This document shows, in pieces, positions 31,961 to 46,020 of a DNA stretch of 64,000 bases; within the stretch, counting starts at the first letter, position 1; each line of letters starts with the position of its first letter. The notes under the pieces are model-generated. The model saw nothing but the letters and a program-made list of their open reading frames with translations. It made no database searches and was not told the origin of the DNA. The DNA lies in NCBI GenBank assembly GCA_947501845.1, contig CANMXP010000006.1, forward strand, positions 62,001 to 126,000, in the 5' to 3' direction. Source of the stretch: an uncultured Flavobacteriaceae bacterium (GTDB taxonomy: Bacteria; Bacteroidota; Bacteroidia; Flavobacteriales; Flavobacteriaceae). The position numbers were made by a program, and so were the translations under genes.

Positions 31961-32224
31961 ATGAGTAAAATTAAGGTTTTTATTCCTTGCGATGATGCAA
32001 ATCATGTATGTGATAAAACACAATATAAAGAGGCTACCCTATGGGAGAAAATAAAACTCAATATACATTTAATATATTGTAGAGCCTGTAGAAAATACAC
32101 AAAAAATAATACGAAGCTTACCAAGGCTATGAAAAAATCTGAAGTAGAATGCTTAGATAGAAAGTGTAAAGAAACTATGAAACTAGATTTTGAAAAAGCT
32201 TTAAAAGATCATGCTAGTCAATAG
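31961..32224 (+). CDS. Small soluble zinc-finger anti-sigma-like protein
   Basis: 87 residues from ATG 31961, 2 bp after the sigma factor stop; the frame open from 31934 overlaps it. Contains HLIYCRAC (H-x3-C-x2-C), the signature of zinc-binding anti-sigma (ZAS, zf-HC2-like) domains, plus further cysteines (IPCDDANHVCDK and ECLDRKCKE). It has no transmembrane helix, so it would act in the cytoplasm as a redox- or zinc-responsive partner of the sigma factor. Its 3' end overlaps the convergent UbiA-like gene by 7 bp. Confidence 0.82.
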   Translation: MSKIKVFIPCDDANHVCDKTQYKEATLWEKIKLNIHLIYCRACRKYTKNNTKLTKAMKKSEVECLDRKCKETMKLDFEKALKDHASQ

Positions 32225-33051
32225 AACATAATCAACAATATTAGCCATATAATTGGTATTCCTTCCACCCAGAAAGCACTATAGCTTTTTCCTTGCTCTG
32301 TCTTAGAAAACAATAAAAATAATAGTGTCATACATATAATTATCATTAAAATAATTATTTGTATCTCGCTTATTTCACTTTTAAAAAAAGTCAAAAAGAA
32401 GAATAGCATGAGTCCTACCCCTCCTATTATTTTTGTTTGCTTAATGCCTATTTTTTGGGGAATTGTTGAGAGCTTTAAACTGTCATATCTTAAGTCCCTG
32501 ATTTCAAAAGGCAACATTAAAACCATTATGAATACGTATCTTTGAATGGCTGTTATTATAACATTGGTACCGATATGATAATTATTATTTATTAAAGGAA
32601 GTAATACTGTAACCCCAGACCAAATAAAGGCTATTAAGTATATTTTTAACCCTCCTATACTTCTTAAATTATGTTGCTTATCTAAAAAAAAACGTTTCGG
32701 TAAAAAAGGAATCGCATATAAAAATGTAATAGTAGCCAAGCCAGCCACACAAATTAAAGTTGTAGAACTTAACTTAACAGCATAATAGCACATAAAAAGA
32801 AAGCTAAAAAAGGAAAAAATCTGAATCAATTTTAGCCAATTTGCCAAACTTCTATGATGAAATTTTGCAATCCCAAAATACTTAACAAAATTATATCCAG
32901 TTATAGTTGCATAAAACACAAAATAAAGCATATTTTCATCATATGGAATTCCAAACTCTATAAGTGTAATCCATGTTAATGAAAATACCGATAAGGCAAC
33001 ATGTATACTACTGTTTAAATAGAAATTAAAGAGTTGCTTTATAAACTTCAT
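32218..33051 (-). CDS. UbiA-like prenyltransferase family membrane protein
   Basis: 277 residues from ATG 33051; a longer frame from 33087 adds a hydrophilic tail. About eight transmembrane helices. Residues FEIRDLRYDSLKLSTIPQKIG match the second Asp-rich motif (DxxxD) of UbiA enzymes, which attach isoprenyl chains to aromatic acceptors. The first motif (NxxxD), expected around TGYNFVKYFGIAK, lacks the second Asp, so catalysis is uncertain. Monocistronic, divergent from gcvP. Confidence 0.75.
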   Translation of the reverse strand: MKFIKQLFNFYLNSSIHVALSVFSLTWITLIEFGIPYDENMLYFVFYATITGYNFVKYFGIAKFHHRSLANWLKLIQIFSFFSFLFMCYYAVKLSSTTLICVAGLATITFLYAIPFLPKRFFLDKQHNLRSIGGLKIYLIAFIWSGVTVLLPLINNNYHIGTNVIITAIQRYVFIMVLMLPFEIRDLRYDSLKLSTIPQKIGIKQTKIIGGVGLMLFFFLTFFKSEISEIQIIILMIIICMTLLFLLFSKTEQGKSYSAFWVEGIPIIWLILLIMFY

Positions 33052-36122: not shown

Positions 36123-37181
36123 ATGAATATAAAAATAACTGGTACTGGAAGCTATATTCCATCTAACGTTGAAAAAAACACCGACTTTCACAACCACACA
36201 TTTTTAAATAATGACGGTTCTTCCATAAACGCACCAAATGAAGTTATAGTTGAGAAATTTAAAGCGATAACAGGTATAACCGAACGTCGTTATGCAAAAG
36301 AACATTTAAACGCCTCAGATTTAGGCTTCTTTGCTGCAGAAAAAGCCATAGAAGATGCTAAAATAGATCCAGAAACCATAGATTACATTATTGTAGCCCA
36401 CAATTTTGGAGATGTTAGACATACCACTAACCAAAGTGATATACTCCCTTCCTTAGCCTCAAGAATCAAGCATAGCTTACGTATTAAAAATCCCAAATGT
36501 GTGGCTTACGACATCCTATTTGGCTGTCCAGGTTGGGTAGAAGGTGTTATTCAAGCAAAGGCTTTTATAAAAGCTGAAATGGCAAAACGCTGTTTGGTTA
36601 TCGGATCTGAAACTTTATCTAGAGTCGTTGATAAATACGATAGGGATTCCATGATTTTTTCTGATGGTGCTGGTGCCACAATTGTTGAAGGAACCCATGA
36701 AGAAGGTGGGGTTTTGGCTCATGAAACGGCTAGTTTTACTTATGATGAAGCTTACTATTTATTCTTTGGGAATTCAAATAATCAAGAATTACCAAAAGAT
36801 ACAAGGTATATAAAAATGGACGGACGCAAAATTTATGAATTTGCACTTGTTAATGTTCCTAAAGCCATGAAAACCTGCTTGGACAATAGTGGTTTTGGTA
36901 TAAAAGACGTAAAAAAAATATTCATCCACCAAGCCAATGAAAAAATGGATGAAGCCATTTTAAAACGCTTTTACAGACTTTATAAAACAGAGATTCCAGA
37001 AAATATTATGCCTATGAGCATTCAAAATTTAGGCAATAGCTCTGTAGCTACCGTACCTACTCTTTTTGATCTGGTAAAAAACAATAAATTAGAAAATCAT
37101 AGCCTAACAAAGGGTGATGTTATTATATTTGCAAGTGTTGGTGCAGGCATGCACATTAATGCCATTGTGTATAAATATTAA
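36123..37181 (+). CDS. 3-oxoacyl-ACP synthase III family protein
   Basis: 352 residues starting MNIKITGTGSYIPSNVEKN; a frame open from 36093 adds ten unlikely residues. FabH-like thiolase fold with complete triad: Cys135 in ILFGCPGWVEGV, His279 in IFIHQANEKM and Asn305 in QNLGNSSVATVP. It condenses an acyl-CoA with malonyl-ACP or, in relatives, transfers acyl groups. It is not obviously the housekeeping FabH, given the GCPGW variant of the active-site loop. The next gene begins 2 bp after its stop, so it heads an operon with a methyltransferase and, originally, the glycosyltransferase at 41620. Confidence 0.9.
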   Translation: MNIKITGTGSYIPSNVEKNTDFHNHTFLNNDGSSINAPNEVIVEKFKAITGITERRYAKEHLNASDLGFFAAEKAIEDAKIDPETIDYIIVAHNFGDVRHTTNQSDILPSLASRIKHSLRIKNPKCVAYDILFGCPGWVEGVIQAKAFIKAEMAKRCLVIGSETLSRVVDKYDRDSMIFSDGAGATIVEGTHEEGGVLAHETASFTYDEAYYLFFGNSNNQELPKDTRYIKMDGRKIYEFALVNVPKAMKTCLDNSGFGIKDVKKIFIHQANEKMDEAILKRFYRLYKTEIPENIMPMSIQNLGNSSVATVPTLFDLVKNNKLENHSLTKGDVIIFASVGAGMHINAIVYKY

Positions 37182-37183
37182 TA

Positions 37184-37705
37184 ATGTACGAGAAAAATTA
37201 TCCGAACAAACGTTTTAAGCTTACTCTTCAATTTTTAAAAAAACACATTTCTAATTCTGAGACTATTTTAGATTTAGGCGTTGTTAATCCGTTTACAAAA
37301 ATCATGCAGGAAAACGGGTATTCTGTTGAAAACACGCTTGGTGAAGATATCGACTTAGATACTTCTATCATTGAAAACTCTAATTCGGATGTGGTAACCG
37401 CTTTTGAGATTTTTGAACATTTATTATCTCCATTCACTGTTTTACGATCTGTAAAAGCAGACAAGTTAGTAGCGAGTGTTCCCCTTAAATTATGGTTTTC
37501 TTCTGCCTATAGAAGCAAAACTGATATGTTAGACAGGCATTACCATGAGTTTGAAGATTGGCAATTCGACTGGTTGCTGGAAAAAGCTGGCTGGAAAATT
37601 ATAGACAGAAAAAAATGGACACATCCTGTAAAAAAAATAGGTGTAAGACCCATTTTACGCTGGTTTACTCCTAGATATTATATTATATATGCCGAAAGGG
37701 TTTAA
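37184..37705 (+). CDS. Class I SAM-dependent methyltransferase (methyltransferase-11 like)
   Basis: 173 residues. SAM-binding loop ETILDLGVVNPFTKIM; the acidic position after the second strand (GEDIDLD) and DVVTAFEIFEHLLSP fit the type 11 methyltransferase fold; the C-terminal domain ends RYYIIYAERV. Coupled to the KAS III gene by 2 bp. Its last nine codons plus stop are duplicated at 41587-41617 with only synonymous differences, directly before the glycosyltransferase gene; the operon was evidently interrupted here. Confidence 0.88.
   Translation: MYEKNYPNKRFKLTLQFLKKHISNSETILDLGVVNPFTKIMQENGYSVENTLGEDIDLDTSIIENSNSDVVTAFEIFEHLLSPFTVLRSVKADKLVASVPLKLWFSSAYRSKTDMLDRHYHEFEDWQFDWLLEKAGWKIIDRKKWTHPVKKIGVRPILRWFTPRYYIIYAERV
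37675..37705 (+). repeat. 31-bp direct repeat, left copy (3' end of methyltransferase gene)
   Basis: Starts within the codons for RYYIIYAERV and ends exactly at the stop. It matches 41587-41617 at 28 of 31 positions; the three differences (ATA/ATT, GCC/GCA, AGG/AGA) are all synonymous. With the right copy it bounds the inserted three-gene segment. Confidence 0.75.
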
Positions 37706-37776
37706 TTAGATGTTAATGACATCAAAATAATTGAGTTGTTTTTTCATTTTAATATCATGTCTTATTTGAAATGGTA

Positions 37777-38481
37777 CTACTTCAACATAAATGCCACTTG
37801 CCTATAATTGTTAACAGCTCCTATAAACTCAAATTGCCATTTATTATTAGTACATCTTTTAAATATTTCGAACGCCTCAAATTCATGATCATGGCTTGAA
37901 AACTCATCAAATATGAGTATATCATTTGTTTTAAGCTTAGGAAATATTTGAAACAGCACAAAAAGTGTTGACGAGAACAAATCTGCATCCAAATGGTATA
38001 CACATTGCTCATTAAAGTCACTAGCTGATAATGTTTTATAAACCGAATCCTGAAACCAACCTTTTACAAAGCTTACTCGACTATCATTTATATTTGGGAA
38101 GCTTCCTTTCTGATCAAAATGACCTTCTTTTTTATCTTCCCAACTCTCTGGGAGTCCCTCAAATGAATCAAAACCAACAAAACGCGATGTTTCTACTTGG
38201 TTAGTTTCAGACCATTTTTTAATCATATCACCACCAGCAACTCCAAACTCGTAATAGTAAATAGGTTTGTTTTTTAATGTCTCCAAAAGTTTGTCATGAA
38301 GCTGAAACCTGTTTTTGTACGTTGCCGATTTGTTATAATAATCGTTGATTTCACCTTTATTTCTATTTTCGCCCATAAAGGCAACAAACTCCATGTATTT
38401 AAAAACAATATGAAAAGGTTTGCATAGCCTTTTTAAAAATTTATATAGTTTCGTTTTTGACAAAAAGGGATGAAATGGCAT
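37777..38481 (-). CDS. TylF/macrocin-type O-methyltransferase-like protein
   Basis: 234 residues. SAM-binding core YYYEFGVAGGDMIKKW, then RFVGFDSFEGLPESWED (typical FDSFEGLP of TylF/MycF sugar O-methyltransferases), YHLDADLFSSTLFVLF and ILIFDEFSSHDHEFEAF with metal-binding acidic residues. Probably methylates a sugar hydroxyl of a surface glycan. It is the last of three minus-strand genes in the insert and starts 1 bp after the stop of the FkbH-like gene. Confidence 0.88.
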   Translation of the reverse strand: MPFHPFLSKTKLYKFLKRLCKPFHIVFKYMEFVAFMGENRNKGEINDYYNKSATYKNRFQLHDKLLETLKNKPIYYYEFGVAGGDMIKKWSETNQVETSRFVGFDSFEGLPESWEDKKEGHFDQKGSFPNINDSRVSFVKGWFQDSVYKTLSASDFNEQCVYHLDADLFSSTLFVLFQIFPKLKTNDILIFDEFSSHDHEFEAFEIFKRCTNNKWQFEFIGAVNNYRQVAFMLK

Positions 38482-38482
38482 A

Positions 38483-40276
38483 TTATTTACTTTCTATTAC
38501 CGTTATTATATTATCGTTATGTATGTCTCTATTCTGACTAAATCTTAGCTCCCGAAAAGCACCTTCTTTTTGTATGGTTTCAAATCCAAAATCATAAAAA
38601 ACCTGAGCAGAGAATTTATTTTTTTCTGTATGATTGTACTTAACCCAAAAATCGCCCGATTCAAGATAACGTTCTAATATATGAGTTAAAAAAGCGTGTT
38701 CTACCCTTTTGCTCTGGATACGGCAACTAAACATCAAATCAACTAATCGGTTTTTAGATTTTTTAATAATACCAAACCCAATAATTCCATAGTCGCCAAA
38801 TCGGTCTTTACATCTTAATATATAAGCAGAAAGATCAGTATTACCATAGATATTGGAAATATCATCTTTGGTATATCGATTGCCCGAAAAATTCATTTGA
38901 TTGGTCCTTTGAGTAAGTTCATAGACTCTTTCAAAATGTGCTTCCTTCAAGGGTTCTATTTCTAATTCAATATTACAGGTATGGAGAAAGTCAAAATATT
39001 CACCTTCATAATCATCTGAAAGTTTTTTCCTTTTAGCTTCGTTTGCATAAAATGTCTTTCGGTTGGCACTTTCATTAGTAATCGGAACTTGAAGCGCTTC
39101 CAAATCTGGTATCGTTTGGTAATGGACGGCATCTATTAACCTCACTTGGGGAAGCGTCATTTCAATCTCCTTTCTTTCAAATTCGGAATCATCAATGAAT
39201 AAAAACGTATTGATATTAATATTAAGATCAAGCGCTATTTCTTTTAGGCTTTTACTTTTGGGTAACCATGAAATTTTAGGATGAATAAAAAAATCTTCAA
39301 TACCAAAATGTTTTAATGCAGCCATGGCAGTATCGTAATCATTTTTACTTGCTATAGAATTTACAATACCCCTATCTTCTACATACTTTAAAATTTCTTT
39401 AATACCTTCTTTAAGTTTTAGTTTTTCAATACCATCTTCTACTAGAATACCACTCCACATCGTATGATCTAAATCCCAAACAATGCATTTAATTTTTTTA
39501 GCTGCTTGGTCTGCCTGTTGGTAATCCTTCAATTGCACAAACTCGGTTGTTCCAAAATATAAAGGGGTTTGACTATTAATAGCTTCAGGAATAAAGTTAA
39601 TACGATAAGGTATTTCTATTTTCACCCTTTTTGCAATCTCATCAAATGGAATCATTTCTTTATGATACCCAGGTTTCAACTCAATTCGGTATTGAAAAGG
39701 AATTTTACTGTACTTTTGATCGTCATTTCTAATTACCAAACCCAAAGGTATCATAGTATCAGTAGGATTATAAACTTCCAGTAAGAAACCATTTGGAGTT
39801 TTTGTTCCTCTATTTTGTTCACTTATTATTTTATTCTTTTTCTGGCTATATCTCTTTTGAATTATTTTTTTTCTAATGAATTTTGGAGGAACAAAATGCA
39901 CCAATCTTGAAAGTTTCAATTCTCTTTCCTCTAAGCTTTCAATTTCACTACAGTCGTATAACTCATTATTTCCTTGAGTCGCCAATACACCCCATTTTTT
40001 AAATTGAATCTTTAATATCTGGGAAACTTTGTTTGCTCTATTAGGATGAATTACCCGTTCTATACCTTCAACAAATCGTTGACATTTCCCATCAATTCTA
40101 GGTGAATATAAATCGCAGGTTTTAAAACATGAAGGCATGGCGCATTCAGTACAGTGCTCAGTCCAATGAAGCATACTTCGACACTTTATACCTCTATAGG
40201 TACCTGAGAATTCCTCCCAAACCTCCTGAGGCAAATCTTCTTGAATAGTTTTAATATATACTTCTGATTCGTACAT
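38483..40276 (-). CDS. FkbH-like HAD-IIIC/GNAT protein with Cys-rich N-terminal domain
   Basis: 597 residues. N-terminal Cys-rich module: Cys32, then C42-x2-C45-x4-C50-x3-C54 and Cys65 in HCTECAMPSCFKTCDLYSPR, a metal- or Fe-S-binding pattern. Residues about 160-250 form a beta-rich domain. From 262 on is the FkbH-like part: HAD motif WDLDHTMWSG (Asp268, Asp270), IASKNDYDTAM, FIDDSEFERKEI, then a GNAT-like domain (ELTQRTNQMNFSGNRYTKDD ... FGDYGIIGFGII). FkbH proteins load glyceryl units from 1,3-bisphosphoglycerate onto carrier proteins; here a glycan-decorating role is more likely. The N-terminal module is not part of standard FkbH. Confidence 0.85.
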   Translation of the reverse strand: MYESEVYIKTIQEDLPQEVWEEFSGTYRGIKCRSMLHWTEHCTECAMPSCFKTCDLYSPRIDGKCQRFVEGIERVIHPNRANKVSQILKIQFKKWGVLATQGNNELYDCSEIESLEERELKLSRLVHFVPPKFIRKKIIQKRYSQKKNKIISEQNRGTKTPNGFLLEVYNPTDTMIPLGLVIRNDDQKYSKIPFQYRIELKPGYHKEMIPFDEIAKRVKIEIPYRINFIPEAINSQTPLYFGTTEFVQLKDYQQADQAAKKIKCIVWDLDHTMWSGILVEDGIEKLKLKEGIKEILKYVEDRGIVNSIASKNDYDTAMAALKHFGIEDFFIHPKISWLPKSKSLKEIALDLNININTFLFIDDSEFERKEIEMTLPQVRLIDAVHYQTIPDLEALQVPITNESANRKTFYANEAKRKKLSDDYEGEYFDFLHTCNIELEIEPLKEAHFERVYELTQRTNQMNFSGNRYTKDDISNIYGNTDLSAYILRCKDRFGDYGIIGFGIIKKSKNRLVDLMFSCRIQSKRVEHAFLTHILERYLESGDFWVKYNHTEKNKFSAQVFYDFGFETIQKEGAFRELRFSQNRDIHNDNIITVIESK

Positions 40277-40391
40277 GTTGATTAAGCTTCCGGTATAATA
40301 ATGAGCATATCATTTTTATAAATCGCTTAGGCTATTTTTATATTGTAAATATAAACGAAGTCTTTTTATCGATGCCTATTTTATTTAGCTT

Positions 40392-41387
40392 TTAATATCT
40401 TTTAATATGATATTTACCAATTACTTTATTAAAATATTTATAAAGGTTTTCTTGAACTATTCTTTTTTCTGTTTGCTTAGTTGGATTTTCAAGTGAAAAT
40501 CGTTGGATTATACGATCATCCATATCTTTTTTCAAACCAGAATTACCAAAAATCTTTATATTACTATCGTATTCCAACAGTGATTCTATTAATTTTTTGG
40601 AAATGGATCTGTCTGAAAAAGGGAATGAAAAAAAGGAATAACTAATATTAAAATGACGCTTTAGCCAATCTATAGAATTAATTATTTCCGCTTTCTGTTC
40701 TTCATATGATAGTTGAATAAGCGGGGGATGCGTCATTGTATGGCCTCCAAAATAGAATCCATCGTCTACCATTTCTTGAATTTGTTCTTTTGTAATATAT
40801 GGTTTATGACTTTTTAAATAGGCTTCTATATTTATATTTAAAAAGTTTAAAACATCATTAACCTTTCCCCTCTCCGTATATTTAATATTTGTGAATTTTT
40901 GCTTGAATTCTTCTATGTTATGATAAGAAAAAGAAAATATTTCACTTATTTTATCTAAACTGGATTTTTCATAATTTTTACTTTTCAAGTTAGAAATTAT
41001 TATACTTATATAATGCTTATATAAACCTTCTCTATTATCAACAAAACTTGGATTTATAAAGAATATAGCCTTAATATTCTTTTTCTTTAAGATAGGATAA
41101 ACCTCAGTATATATCTCTTGCAAACCATCGTCAAAAGAAAGTAAAAAGCTATTTTTTTTAAGGCTGTTTTCTAATAAATTTTTCGGATCTAGAGATTTAT
41201 AATGACTATTTAAAATATCAATATCAAATAAAAATTGTTCTTTGTTTTTAAATGAATATAGATTTTCAATATGGTCTACTTTGATATCCTTTATTATATG
41301 GTAATATGGAAATATACTCTGATTCTTAAATACTGGTAAAAATCTTTTATCAGAGACTTTGTATAAAATGTCTTTTACAATTCCCAT
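40392..41387 (-). CDS. Polysaccharide deacetylase (NodB-like) family protein
   Basis: 331 residues, no signal peptide. NodB motif 1 is SFDDGLQEIYTEVYPIL (metal and catalytic Asp pair), motif 2 is GGHTMTHPPLIQLS (H-x3-H metal ligands), followed by FSFPFSDRSISKKLI (the R/F-P-F region). It probably N- or O-deacetylates a sugar in an intracellular glycan precursor or acts in capsule assembly. First gene of the inserted minus-strand trio, 115 bp from the FkbH-like gene. Confidence 0.88.
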   Translation of the reverse strand: MGIVKDILYKVSDKRFLPVFKNQSIFPYYHIIKDIKVDHIENLYSFKNKEQFLFDIDILNSHYKSLDPKNLLENSLKKNSFLLSFDDGLQEIYTEVYPILKKKNIKAIFFINPSFVDNREGLYKHYISIIISNLKSKNYEKSSLDKISEIFSFSYHNIEEFKQKFTNIKYTERGKVNDVLNFLNINIEAYLKSHKPYITKEQIQEMVDDGFYFGGHTMTHPPLIQLSYEEQKAEIINSIDWLKRHFNISYSFFSFPFSDRSISKKLIESLLEYDSNIKIFGNSGLKKDMDDRIIQRFSLENPTKQTEKRIVQENLYKYFNKVIGKYHIKRY

Positions 41388-41428
41388 AATGGCTAAGTTA
41401 AAGTGTCAAATCATATACTTTGGCTTAT

Positions 41429-41450
41429 TTCGACTACGCTCCATACAAGC
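41429..41450. repeat. Dispersed repeat, family B, in the insert's right flank
   Basis: ttcgactacgctcc flanked by tggctt (41421) and aagcca (41447), an imperfect inverted arrangement, matches the family B core. It lies between the deacetylase gene and the methyltransferase remnant. Confidence 0.4.
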
Positions 41451-41586
41451 CACTCAATATAACCTAAAGTCGAGATGTTTTGTTTTTCAAAAATAACAAT
41501 TAACAACACGAAACAAAGTTATTTCTTTTTTAACAATGAAACATTATCTACAGGCATTTTCATAATGGCGCAAATATTATACTTCA

Positions 41587-41617
41587 ATATTATATTATTT
41601 ATGCAGAAAGAGTTTAA
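41587..41617 (+). pseudogene. Remnant of methyltransferase 3' end (right copy of direct repeat)
   Basis: Encodes YYIIYAERV and stop, the exact C-terminus of the methyltransferase at 37184-37705, with three synonymous changes. The glycosyltransferase start codon follows 2 bp after this stop, matching the tight spacing elsewhere in the operon. Upstream of it the match ends abruptly. This is best explained as the original gene junction left behind when 3.9 kb was inserted. Confidence 0.75.
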
Positions 41618-41619
41618 CT

Positions 41620-42507
41620 TTGAATAAACAAACTTCAATTTTGAATTTCTATATCATAATCCCCGCTCATAACGAACAAAGCTCTATAGGTCTCACTTTA
41701 GATTCGTTGTCCAAGCAGACGTTACCTCCAAAACGCTTAGTGGTTGTAAATGATAACTCGACAGACAAAACGCAAGATATTGTTGAGGCTTATGCCGAAA
41801 AACACCCATGGATTTCTTTAGTAAACTCTAAATCCTCTAACGAGCATTTACCTGGTTCAAAAATCATCAATGCCTTTTACAAAGGTTATGAGATTCTAGA
41901 TGACAACTATGATGTGATTTGTAAATTTGATGCTGATTTAATTTTTCCGAATACTTATTTAGAACAACTATCCAATCACTATAAAACCAGTGAAAAACTA
42001 GGTATGGCTTCTGGTTTTTGCTATATAGAAAAAAACAATAATTGGGTATTGGAAAACTTAACCCGGAAAGACCACATTCGTGGTGCATTAAAAGCTTATA
42101 GAAAAACTTGTTTTCTCCAAATTGGAAAACTCAAACCGTCCATGGGCTGGGATACCGTTGATGAATTATTGGCTAAATTTTATAATTGGGAAATTTTAAC
42201 CGATGCATCTTTAAAAGTGAAGCATCTAAAACCAACGGGAATTAGTTACAATAAGGCTTCAAAATATTTACAGGGGGAAGCCATGTACAAAATGCGATAT
42301 GGATTAATTATCACCTTAATTTCTGCTTTGAAATTAGCTTATAAAAAGCGAAGTCTTACTTTATTCAAAAATTATATGTCTGGTTATTTTAAAGCTAAAA
42401 AAAGTAAAATGCCCTATTTAGTATCAGAACAGGAAGGCATATTTATTCGTGATTTACGTTGGAATGGTATAAAAAACTCTTTGTTTTTAAAAAGCAAAAG
42501 AAGCTAA
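41620..42507 (+). CDS. Family 2 glycosyltransferase
   Basis: 295 residues. GT-A fold with FYIIIPAHNEQSSIGLTLDS, VVNDNSTDKTQDIV and the DxD metal motif in CKFDADLIFPNTYLE. Start TTG at 41620; no ATG precedes the catalytic core. The start lies 2 bp after the stop of a methyltransferase 3'-end remnant, so it was once coupled to the KAS III-methyltransferase operon and is now 3.9 kb away. Probably adds a sugar to a lipid or envelope glycan together with those enzymes. Confidence 0.9.
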   Translation: MNKQTSILNFYIIIPAHNEQSSIGLTLDSLSKQTLPPKRLVVVNDNSTDKTQDIVEAYAEKHPWISLVNSKSSNEHLPGSKIINAFYKGYEILDDNYDVICKFDADLIFPNTYLEQLSNHYKTSEKLGMASGFCYIEKNNNWVLENLTRKDHIRGALKAYRKTCFLQIGKLKPSMGWDTVDELLAKFYNWEILTDASLKVKHLKPTGISYNKASKYLQGEAMYKMRYGLIITLISALKLAYKKRSLTLFKNYMSGYFKAKKSKMPYLVSEQEGIFIRDLRWNGIKNSLFLKSKRS

Positions 42508-42556: not shown

Positions 42557-45500
42557 TTATTCTACAAGTAATCTTTTTACTGTTTTTATAGAATTATCTT
42601 TATTCGTAATACTAACCAAATAAAGTCCTTGGGGTAATGAACTAATATTCAAATTAATAGTTTTCTTATTTTCAGATTTCATATTAACAGATTTATTAAT
42701 AACCTCTCGACTAGAAAAATTATAAATTTTCACCGTTACATCTTCGTCATCAATTCCCGATAAATCAATTTTCAAGTTATTCCTAGCAGGGTTAGGGTGC
42801 ATAGAAATTTTAGCAGATTTACTTTCATGATGATTAGCATAATTAATCAAATCGCAAACAGCACTATCCGATGGAAATCTAAAAACGGGGATTGGGTTTG
42901 ATAAATCATAGCAGCCAGATAAATCGGTAAACGCATTATTACCTTGTTCCGCTCCATATATGGTGTTGAAACTCAAATGCCAAATTAAACAAACTCCAGG
43001 TCCAGCACCATCAAAATTAACAACATCTGGTGATGGTGGCAAACCAAGAATATTGCCTTCTACATCGGTAACAACCCATTGTGAGTTATATCCTTTATTA
43101 TTATGTAATTTTATTCCTGTAGCGAAATCATCATTGCCATCGCCTTCACAGAACAAGTATAATCCACCAGCTTTAATATAACCACCATTAAGATCGCACA
43201 CTGGTTCAACTTTATCAGTTCTAATAACCTCTATTGGGTTTGATAAACTGTAACAACCTATCAAGTCGGAGGCATTCTTTCCTTGCTCTGCGCCTTCTAT
43301 GTCGCCATCAAAGCTTAAGTGCCATACTAGGCAGGTGCCTTGTCCAGCTCCGTCAAAATCCACAACATAAGGGCTTGGTGGTAAACCTAAAATATTGCCT
43401 TCTGCATCGGTAACTACCCATTGCGAGTTTCCTCCAGAGTTACCTTCCAAGGTTATCGCACCTTCTGGGATGTTATCGGCTACACCGTCACCAACAGTGA
43501 ACTCAAATGGCCCTCCAGACAAGGTACCTCCCTTGGGCTCGTTCCTTACCACTTCTATAGGATTGGATAAATCGTAATCACCTACCAAATCGGATGCGTT
43601 CTTTCCTTGCTCAGCACCTTCTATATTGCCATTAAAACTTAGGTGCCATACCAAACAGGTGCCTGGTCCAGCTCCATCAAAGTCCACAACATATGGAGTT
43701 GGTGGCAAACCTAAAATATTACCATCTGCATCGGTAACTACCCACTGAGAGTTTTCTCCTGAATTACCTTCTAAAGTAATAGCGCCTTCTGGAATGTTAT
43801 CGGCAATACCATCTCCCACACAATATTCAAATGGGCCTCCCGACAGCGTACCGCCATCTATTGCCGAGTTTCTTATAACCTCTATTGGGTTTGACAAACT
43901 GTAACAGCCTATCAAGTCGGAGGCATTCTTTCCTTGCTCTGCGCCTTCTATATCACCATTAAAACTTAGGTGCCATACCAAACAGGTGCCTTGTCCAGCT
44001 CCGTCAAAATCCACAACATAAGGACTTGGTGGTAAACCTAAAATATTGCCTTCTGCATCGGTAACTACCCATTGCGAGTTTCCTCCAGAGTTACCTTCCA
44101 AGGTTATCGCGCCTTCTGGAATGTTATCGGATACACCGTCACTAACAGTGAACTCAAATGGCCCTCCAGACAAGGTCCCACCTTTAGGCTCGTTCCTTAC
44201 CACTTCTATAGGATTGGATAAATCGTAATCACCTACCAAATCGGATGCGTTCTTTCCTTGCTCAGCACCTTCTATATCTCCATTAAAACTTAGGTGCCAT
44301 ACCAAACAGGTGCCTGCACCTGCGCCATCAAAGTCTACAACATATGGAGTTGGTGGCAAGCCTAAGATATTACCTTCTGCATCGGTAACTACCCATTGGG
44401 AATTTGCCCCAGCATTACCTTCCAAAGTAATAGCACCTTCTGGAATATTATCGGCAATACCATCTCCTACACAATATTCAAATGGGCCTCCCGACAGCGT
44501 ACCACCGTCTACTTTTGCATAATTTCTAATAACTTCAATAGAATTCGACAGACTGTAACAGCCTACCAGGTCGGAGGCATTCTTTCCTTGTTCTGCACCT
44601 TCTATGTCGCCATCAAAGCTTAAGTGCCATACCAAACAGGTGCCTGGTCCAGCTCCATCAAAATCCACAACATATGGGCTTGGCGGTAAACCTAAAATAT
44701 TACCATCTGCATCGGTAACTACCCATTGGGAATTCCCTCCCGAATTACCTTCCAAGGTTATCGCGCCTTCTGGAATATTATCGGCTACACCGTCACCAAC
44801 AGTAAACTCAAATGGTCCTCCAGACAAGGTACCGCCCTTGGGCTCGTTCCTTACCACTTCTATCGGGTTGGATAAGTCGTAATCACCTACCAAATCGGAG
44901 GCATTCTTTCCTTGCTCAGCACCTTCTATCTCACCATTAAAACTTAGGTGCCACACCAAGCAGGTGCCTGGTCCAGCTCCGTCAAAGTCCACAACATATG
45001 GAGTTGGCGGCAGACCTAAGATATTACCATCTGCATCGGTAACTACCCATTGGGAATTTTCTCCCGAATTACCTTCTAAGGCGATAGCACCTTCTGGAAT
45101 GTTATCTGCAATACCATCTCCCACACAATATTCAAATGGGCCTCCCGATAGCGTACCGCCATCTATTGCCGAGTTTCTTATAACCTCGATTGGGTTTGAC
45201 AAACTGTAACAGCCTATCAGGTCGGAGGCGTTCTTTCCTTGCTCTGCGCCTTCTATGTCACCATCAAAGCTTAAGTGCCATACCAAACAGGTGCCAGGCC
45301 CTGCTCCATCAAAATCTACAACATACGGACTTGGCGGTAATCCTAAAATATTACCTTCTGCATCAGTAACCACCCATTGAGAGTTCCCTCCCGAATTACC
45401 TTCTAAAATTATGGCACCTTCCAGGATATTATCGGCTTCTTCATTTCCGACAGTGAACTCAAATGGTCCTCCCGATAAGGTGCCTCCCTTGGGGTCATTT

Positions 45501-45934
45501 CTTACTACTTCTATTGAATTGGATAAATCATACCAACCTCTTAACCTTGATAAATTCTTTCCTATCTTTAAATTTCTAACATACCACCAATACGATACAT
45601 GCCAAATTTTACAAACCCCAGCTCCCGCATTTTCAAAATCAAATGGAGGTGCTTTGGGCAAGGCCAAAATATTATTTTTATCATCGGTGATAATCCATTG
45701 TTTCTTTTTTCCTCGATCACCTCTTAGATACACATTTATAGGTGTTGAGTTTCCGTCAATACAAATTGTTGTATTATCCTTTGTGCTAATTTTACCTCCA
45801 TCAAGATACCTACCTCGCTTCTCTTGCTGAGCATCTAAATTAGAATTCATTAACAAAAAGAAAACAATTAAAAGTAGATTTCCAGCATATTGAACTGGTC
45901 GTCCAATATGACTTAAAAACTGTAGTTTCTTCAT
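42557..45934 (-). CDS. T9SS-secreted repeat protein with nine about 108-residue domains
   Basis: 1125 residues from ATG 45934 (an upstream ATG at 45991 adds 19 residues before the signal). Signal peptide, one degenerate first unit, seven near-identical units, a divergent ninth unit, and a type A T9SS sorting domain (MHPNPARNNLKIDLSG ... KTVKRLLVE). Each unit has the core NSQWVVTDADGNILGLPPSP - VVDFDGAGPGTCLVWHLSF - AEQGKNASDL. Units alternate between type A (end GCYSLSNPIEVIRN, start FEFTV) and type B (start FEYCVG, end GDYDLSNPIEVVRNEPK). Likely a surface or released adhesin-like structural protein; no catalytic site is visible. Function unproven. Confidence 0.9.
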   Translation of the reverse strand: MKKLQFLSHIGRPVQYAGNLLLIVFFLLMNSNLDAQQEKRGRYLDGGKISTKDNTTICIDGNSTPINVYLRGDRGKKKQWIITDDKNNILALPKAPPFDFENAGAGVCKIWHVSYWWYVRNLKIGKNLSRLRGWYDLSNSIEVVRNDPKGGTLSGGPFEFTVGNEEADNILEGAIILEGNSGGNSQWVVTDAEGNILGLPPSPYVVDFDGAGPGTCLVWHLSFDGDIEGAEQGKNASDLIGCYSLSNPIEVIRNSAIDGGTLSGGPFEYCVGDGIADNIPEGAIALEGNSGENSQWVVTDADGNILGLPPTPYVVDFDGAGPGTCLVWHLSFNGEIEGAEQGKNASDLVGDYDLSNPIEVVRNEPKGGTLSGGPFEFTVGDGVADNIPEGAITLEGNSGGNSQWVVTDADGNILGLPPSPYVVDFDGAGPGTCLVWHLSFDGDIEGAEQGKNASDLVGCYSLSNSIEVIRNYAKVDGGTLSGGPFEYCVGDGIADNIPEGAITLEGNAGANSQWVVTDAEGNILGLPPTPYVVDFDGAGAGTCLVWHLSFNGDIEGAEQGKNASDLVGDYDLSNPIEVVRNEPKGGTLSGGPFEFTVSDGVSDNIPEGAITLEGNSGGNSQWVVTDAEGNILGLPPSPYVVDFDGAGQGTCLVWHLSFNGDIEGAEQGKNASDLIGCYSLSNPIEVIRNSAIDGGTLSGGPFEYCVGDGIADNIPEGAITLEGNSGENSQWVVTDADGNILGLPPTPYVVDFDGAGPGTCLVWHLSFNGNIEGAEQGKNASDLVGDYDLSNPIEVVRNEPKGGTLSGGPFEFTVGDGVADNIPEGAITLEGNSGGNSQWVVTDAEGNILGLPPSPYVVDFDGAGQGTCLVWHLSFDGDIEGAEQGKNASDLIGCYSLSNPIEVIRTDKVEPVCDLNGGYIKAGGLYLFCEGDGNDDFATGIKLHNNKGYNSQWVVTDVEGNILGLPPSPDVVNFDGAGPGVCLIWHLSFNTIYGAEQGNNAFTDLSGCYDLSNPIPVFRFPSDSAVCDLINYANHHESKSAKISMHPNPARNNLKIDLSGIDDEDVTVKIYNFSSREVINKSVNMKSENKKTINLNISSLPQGLYLVSITNKDNSIKTVKRLLVE
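43200..45487 (-). repeat. Tandem array: seven about 325-bp units arranged as alternating A/B dimers
   Basis: Units 2-8 of the protein are nearly identical in DNA. Landmarks such as the segment for EVVRNEPK recur about every 650 bp (near 43536, 44193, 44842, 45494), so the amplified unit is a two-domain dimer. High nucleotide identity points to recent amplification or gene conversion; assemblers may mis-count copies here. Confidence 0.85.
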
Positions 45935-45982
45935 AATATTATTTTTTTGATTAATTAACTTTTGTAAAGCTAAATGACAAAA

Positions 45983-46020
45983 AAAGATCAAAATGTTAGC
46001 TGGCTAACATTTTGATCTTT
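45983..46020 (-). terminator. Strong terminator downstream of the nuclease gene
   Basis: Perfect 18-bp stem (arms aaagatcaaaatgttagc and its complement) around a 2-nt centre, with a U-tract in the minus-strand transcript; 22 bp after the nuclease stop codon. Confidence 0.88.

Follow-up and report, generated by a model that had tools for sequence, protein, structure and literature searches.

A duplicated gene end around a glycan-modification cassette in Flavivirga may reflect overlap of a coding sequence with the next gene's promoter

We analysed a 64,000-nt stretch of DNA (the window; assembly GCA_947501845.1, contig CANMXP010000006.1, positions 62,001 to 126,000) from a Flavobacteriaceae genome of the genus Flavivirga, in which a cassette of three opposite-strand glycan-modification genes lies between a gene for a putative methyltransferase (MT) and one for a GT2-family glycosyltransferase (GT2). 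The last 31 bp of the MT gene recur as a direct repeat on the far side of the cassette, shortly before GT2 (Table 1). Comparison of 12 Flavivirga genomes—that of the window, G000, included—and of loci outside the genus identifies the right copy as the native MT end left on GT2, and not as the end of a new MT. The explanation we favour, with slightly better than even confidence, is that the MT 3' end overlaps the promoter of GT2, such that an insertion would have been tolerated only with the overlap doubled, the left copy then coding and the right copy regulating.

The two copies agree at 28 of 31 positions. Searching the window with the 31-mer at up to three mismatches returned just these two sites, as opposed to no match in 100 shuffles. 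By reading, both copies encode YYIIYAERV followed by a stop codon in the MT frame, with all three differences being synonymous. On these points, as on the gene content, our results agree with the sequence-only reading, a first model-made annotation of the window that this work followed up.

That annotation had further proposed that the insert split an operon, and had predicted relatives in which the genes are contiguous; both were found. Among 90 MT-carrying loci outside the genus (14 + 9 + 27 + 40 from four samplings), 77 have the start of GT2 no more than 400 nt behind the MT stop codon and three have it further away, while no GT2 was seen in ten, nine of which came with just 1.5 kb of flank. 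MT and GT2 are separated by four unrelated genes in G192, a member of another genus, yet uninterrupted in its congener G332; one open reading frame (ORF) each lies between them in G299 and G320, and the neighbourhood of MT is rearranged in G253. Within Flavivirga, the two genes are contiguous in G009. Since GT2 lies close behind MT in 77 of the 90 outside loci, MT–GT2 is the old order, and the comparison shows the ancestral arrangement to be KAS III–MT–GT2. The right copy together with the leader of GT2 matches the intact MT–GT2 junction of G009 over 54 nt (94% identity, E 2e-15). Given the old gene order and this colinearity, the right copy is the MT end that GT2 had before it all along. The same stub is present in four of the seven cassette carriers (G000, G011, G002 and G003, the last with ~190 bp inserted behind it). 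No MT stub was found before GT2 in the carriers G004, G007 and G010 or in the cassette-free G001, G005, G006 and G008 (p 0.35 to 0.93), nor in G299 and G320 (p 0.57 and 0.28).

Table 1 Features of the slot between KAS III and GT2 and of its flanks in the window
Feature	Position	Strand	Basis
KAS III-like gene, left flank of the slot	36123..37181	+	Pfam/NCBIfam
MT, intact, 173 aa ("methyltransferase" is the label of the sequence-only reading)	37184..37705	+	
Left repeat copy, coding 3' end of MT	37675..37705	+	Comparison
Cassette gene 3, TylF-type O-methyltransferase	37777..38481	-	PF05711
Cassette gene 2, FkbH-domain protein	38483..40276	-	TIGR01686
Cassette gene 1, polysaccharide deacetylase	40392..41387	-	PF01522
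Right repeat copy, non-coding stub of the native MT 3' end	41587..41617	+	Comparison with relatives
Conserved 39-nt core; would reach from about -38 to +1 relative to the predicted start of transcription	41589..41627	+	
TAACTTTG, candidate -7 promoter box of GT2; its TAA is the old MT stop codon	41615..41622	+	
GT2-family glycosyltransferase	41641..42507	+	PF00535

The right copy lacks the remainder of the gene and does not code. Across its four carriers (G000, G011, G002 and G003), pairwise identity amounts to 227/234 (97%) in a 39-nt core and to 383/601 (64%) in the spacer just upstream. Two of the 39 core columns vary, compared with 147 of 280 third positions of GT2 (Fisher 2e-9) and 200 of 840 GT2 sites overall (Fisher 0.005); over the 29 nt common to both copies, the right copy varies at two positions and the coding left copy at nine (Fisher 0.04). 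As the bounds of the core were set by eye after alignment and the four species are related, the p values for the core are optimistic. Conservation runs past the old MT stop codon into the box and leader, and the stub of G011 carries a non-synonymous change. The earlier proposal that both copies evolved as coding sequence thus does not hold for the right one, whose conservation is consistent with a promoter of GT2.

The sigma-A -7 box of Flavobacterium psychrophilum reads TAnnTTTG and occupies -12 to -5 (PMC9723704). The core holds TAACTTTG, which fits this consensus, 26 nt before GT2; at the F. psychrophilum spacing, transcription would start ~14 nt before GT2 (near 41627). For 77 intact junctions (G009, G332 and 75 survey loci), we searched the 80 nt upstream of GT2. 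TAnnTTTG occurred in 20 of them, each time at -24 to -30 and nowhere else within the 80 nt, with motif density predicting ~0.6 chance occurrences per 77 junctions at -32 to -22. The box spans the MT stop codon in 13 of the 20, GAAAGAGTTTAACTTTG being the typical string where the stop forms part of it, and lies beyond the stop in seven. Before other genes, a box at -32 to -22 was found for MT in 2/77, KAS in 1/72, gcvP in 3/12, the MlaE gene in 1/25, UP1 (32218-33048) in 0/12, the nuclease gene in 0/24 and the phosphodiesterase gene in 0/13 sequences. Counted anywhere in the 80 nt, it is more frequent before MT (36/77) than before GT2, mostly at -59 to -62 and there, by reading, inside KAS codons; the box of UP1 sits at -15 in 9/12 and that of gcvP mostly at -39 to -30 among the hits, positions that promoters might have. 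For the longer string AGTTTAACTTT, 1.3 Mb of strand sequence contain 23 occurrences; the last 60 nt before GT2 include it in 20 of the 77 junctions. Three of these 20 have an MT frame that ends before AGTTTAACTTT, which is therefore non-coding there. In the four stub carriers, AGTTTAACTTT is confined to the right copy: their left MT ends close with TGA in three cases and with TAATTAG in the window, where TTAG follows the MT stop codon and the left copy hence lacks the TAACTTTG box. A -7 box at a constrained distance before GT2, as expected of a flavobacterial sigma-A promoter, is thus present in the window and in 20 of 77 intact junctions.

Several observations weigh against a promoter at this place. 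TAnnTTTG is absent from the position in 57 of the 77 intact junctions, some of which have one-off variants such as TAACTTTA. Three of the seven cassette carriers (G010, G007 and G004) have neither stub nor box before GT2, and the stub of G192 is decayed and without a box. In G003, the core lies ~190 bp from GT2 and another TAAATTTG is found at -27, the core being conserved all the same. For the 31-mer as it was defined beforehand, the right copy varies at 3/31 and the left at 10/31 positions (p 0.059), and the right copy against all GT2 sites gives 0.082, both missing 0.05 (against third positions, 2e-6). Synonymous constraint on the last eight MT codons of intact junctions, examined as a sign of dual coding, was not significant, these ranking 14th of 93 windows in the 13 box-bearing rows and 19th of 93 in the 39 rows without a box. 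These points reduce our confidence in a promoter role and leave that in the origin of the right copy unchanged.

We infer the following course of events. In the ancestral KAS III–MT–GT2 arrangement, the MT stop codon would have formed part of the box of GT2's own promoter, and the last ~40 bp of MT would have belonged to the MT reading frame and to this promoter alike. In Flavivirga, the cassette would then have entered between MT and GT2; as the ~40 bp would be doubly used, an insertion sparing both genes would have to carry the overlap twice. The left copy would have been kept as coding sequence and lost the box; the right copy would have gone on serving as promoter while the remainder of its gene disappeared. 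A likely route would be integrase-free recombination, homologous at the KAS/MT side and illegitimate at the other. Selection would in this case have caused the duplication, as a consequence of what survives and not of a recombinase.

The place between KAS III and GT2 is variable. The frame gcvP–KAS III–slot–GT2 is kept in all 12 Flavivirga genomes, with six architectures of the slot at species (not strain) level: MT alone (G009); MT with TylF–FkbH–deacetylase (the window, G011, G002 and G003); the same with an additional 409-aa gene (G010 and G007); a putative membrane protein with a second GT2-family gene (G001, G006 and G008); these two together with the cassette (G004); and an FkbM-type methyltransferase (G005). 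Different gene sets hence occupy the same position between conserved flanks. The putative membrane protein has no Pfam match and is flippase-like by reading. By family match, GT2, deacetylase, TylF, FkbH and FkbM would fit genes for exposed surface structures. The case that would have spoken against an insertion, namely the same three genes in all relatives, did not arise, as FkbH is present in 7 of the 12 genus genomes.

Joints within the slot are visible as broken genes. G004 (locus L071) has a mirror-image scar between the second GT2-family gene and the cassette (TylF): a broken GT2 5' end with its leader, consisting of 49 nt at 84% identity to GT2 of G001, G006 and G008, ~230 nt of other sequence and a weaker 70% stretch. 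In G192, ~110 nt of a decayed MT end directly precede GT2 behind the unrelated cargo, with an intact MT on the other side (p 0.003, the minimum possible with 300 Markov resamplings); the stub in Flavivirga measures ~40 nt. Other cargo between the same repeats had been anticipated: other cargo does fill the same slot in the genus and in other genera, and G192 supplies a case with an MT end on either side, albeit with a decayed stub. Altogether, truncated gene ends of this sort lie at joints in G192 and in 5 of the 12 Flavivirga genomes. The unequal lengths of the ends left by module joining speak against a fixed attachment site.

How else could an MT end have come to lie before GT2? The stub might be a passive scar, a truncated MT end that resembles its source for want of time to decay. 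Gene-end scars at joints do occur, as the GT2 fragment of G004 and the MT end of G192 illustrate, and the predefined 31-mer shows no significant excess of conservation in the right copy over the left. We nonetheless regard a passive scar as rather unlikely, since the same four species that keep the core at 97% have let the neighbouring spacer fall to 64%, and since GT2 third positions vary far more than the stub. MT might also have undergone tandem duplication, the cassette coming to lie between the two genes and the second one losing sequence from its 5' end until just what GT2 needs was left. This would likewise place an MT end before GT2, and erosion would be expected to stop at the promoter. 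Such a history is improbable: a second MT match is missing from all 12 genus genomes, and in the four stub carriers the MT similarity of the right spacer extends over just ~40 nt, a search for longer remnants upstream of the stub having found none there (scores against whole MT genes 40-47).

Integrative elements can use gene 3' ends as attachment sites, leaving the gene intact and a displaced 3' end on the far side. The window has this geometry—an intact gene on one side, a displaced 3' end on the other and native downstream DNA next to it—and an element could have integrated site-specifically into the MT 3' end, bringing its own copy of the gene end (attL/attR) and losing its integrase since. 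In agreement with the sequence-only reading, the slot ORFs of the 12 Flavivirga genomes revealed no integrase, as judged by BLAST labels and reading and not by a dedicated search. The flanking repeats are neither fixed in length, given the different stubs of Flavivirga and G192, nor kept near-identical, with 27, 21, 24 and 26 of 30 positions shared between left and right copy in the four carriers, and the points of joining differ in G004 and in the other slot alleles. We therefore consider site-specific integration very improbable. Least probable of all is the original proposal that each copy is the coding end of an MT allele and that module swapping prefers the MT 3' end as an attachment-like site. 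The three synonymous differences, the variable slot contents and the other cargo between MT and MT end in G192 suit it; yet the right copy is a stub with no gene upstream, G011 carries a non-synonymous change, conservation extends past the stop codon, and the repeat was found neither in three of the seven cassette carriers nor in the four cassette-free slot alleles with the flippase-like and GT2-family genes or with FkbM.

If an overlap of MT with the GT2 promoter is indeed what duplicated the gene end, a direct repeat of a gene 3' end around an insert need not mean an attachment site, with selection the favoured cause here. One may go further and suppose that, wherever a gene 3' end overlaps the next promoter, any tolerated insertion doubles the overlap, leaving one copy to code and the other to regulate, and so creates attachment-like repeats and an apparent exchange site without a recombinase. 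We put this forward tentatively, at a little less than even confidence; it would yield testable predictions of the places at which operons can accommodate foreign modules, and make insertion scars a way to find internal promoters.

The closest known systems share parts of this picture. In replacement flexible genomic islands, a single position with conserved genes on either side holds alternative gene sets for surface structures, their exchange being attributed to recombination in the flanks (PMC4033161); here, truncated gene ends lie at the joints, and the unit is small (three genes) and apparently old in the genus. The slot may thus show joints in a glycan-gene locus of a kind said to bear no clear hallmarks of illegitimate recombination (PMC4033161). 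In Vibrio and relatives, displacement of type VI secretion system effector–immunity modules and Rhs 3' regions is proposed to combine an anchor of upstream homology with an illegitimate downstream join, the displaced native 3' part staying in place (PMC5361080). The proposed join geometry is alike and the anchoring is inferred in both cases, whereas Vibrio displacement keeps whole immunity genes or coding 3' parts (PMC5361080) and the Flavivirga stub is a non-coding piece of ~40 bp, apparently a promoter. Homology-facilitated illegitimate recombination, with one homologous and one illegitimate end, would also yield a duplicated gene end (PMC3240628); its geometry fits, although the process would here have to be deduced, the junctions being too old to read microhomology. 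A literature search found no paper on this locus or on such an overlap duplication, which is weak evidence of absence as part of the search returned nothing.

As to the source of the cassette, an FkbH match (E <= 1e-60) was obtained for 3 of the 299 family genomes sampled, each of them a Flavivirga. A pattern-based and non-exhaustive contig scan returned homologs with 52-59% identity in Roseivirga, Pararhodonellum and two metagenome-assembled genomes. TylF and a deacetylase-like ORF adjoin FkbH in two of these outside loci (L079 and L081) and a deacetylase-like ORF in a third (L080), the deacetylases being assigned by reading; the fourth locus (L082) ends inside the FkbH gene. This suggests that the cassette was acquired as a pre-formed module from outside the family. 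Its divergence among genus members resembles that of GT2 and its tree is compatible with that of rpoB+gyrA except for G002, so the cassette looks old in the genus. This phylogeny of the cargo, proposed earlier as a check, hence departs from the rpoB+gyrA tree at one genome only. In approximately unbiased (AU) tests, for which the groups were named after the trees were seen, the cassette rejects G002 with G003 + G007 (p 0.004), GT2 rejects G002 with G007, G003 and G009 (p 0.005) and rpoB+gyrA rejects G002 with G000 + G011 (p 0.012), gcvP being undecisive (p 0.46). Later exchange between species is the likely reason why cassette and GT2 of G002 group with those of G000 and G011. Within the FkbH-domain protein, a long N-terminal part has no Pfam match, and C42, C45, C50, C54 and C65 are invariant in the seven genus copies.

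The trees of GT2 (99/96) and MT (82/96) pair the cassette carrier G003 with the cassette-free G009, and the KAS tree leaves the two unresolved. Compared window by window, G003 is as near or nearer to G002 in the initial part of MT and over the first 90 nt of GT2. That G009 lost its cassette by recombination between two MT ends is an attractive but unproven idea. Within the genus, G010 branches first by midpoint rooting only, and the base is unresolved in an outgroup-rooted gcvP tree. KAS III itself comes in two deep alleles of about 70% nucleotide identity in the genus, each also present in other genera. The split fits a single replacement on the rpoB+gyrA tree (branch at 89/94); we considered the alleles as proof of frequent swapping and rejected this, as one replacement in the genus suffices.

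MT has no family match in Pfam or NCBIfam; of the 249 near-complete family genomes in the sample, 202 yielded a match to it (E <= 1e-30). Behind it, GT2 is replaced in G094 (L193 2077-4911) by glycosyltransferase-like, acyltransferase-like and oxidoreductase-like genes, and a proC-like gene lies between KAS III and MT in L195 (G299) and L197 (G293), all by reading. Comparison with relatives corrected the start of GT2 in the window to the TTG at 41641, instead of 41620. TTG occupies this position in 42 and ATG in 30 of the 77 intact junctions, making a rare start codon unusually common. The spacer between cassette and stub (41388-41586) contains an imperfect palindrome of the type TTCGACTACGCTC...AAGTCGA that looks like a dispersed repeat, similar strings being found in the spacers of G003 and G007. 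Directly behind GT2, positions 42557-45991 encode a repetitive secreted protein with five 300-nt repeats and a type IX secretion system sorting tail. It is present in 6 of the 12 genus genomes, with another repeat protein in G007 and nothing in the remaining five, pointing to a second variable slot.

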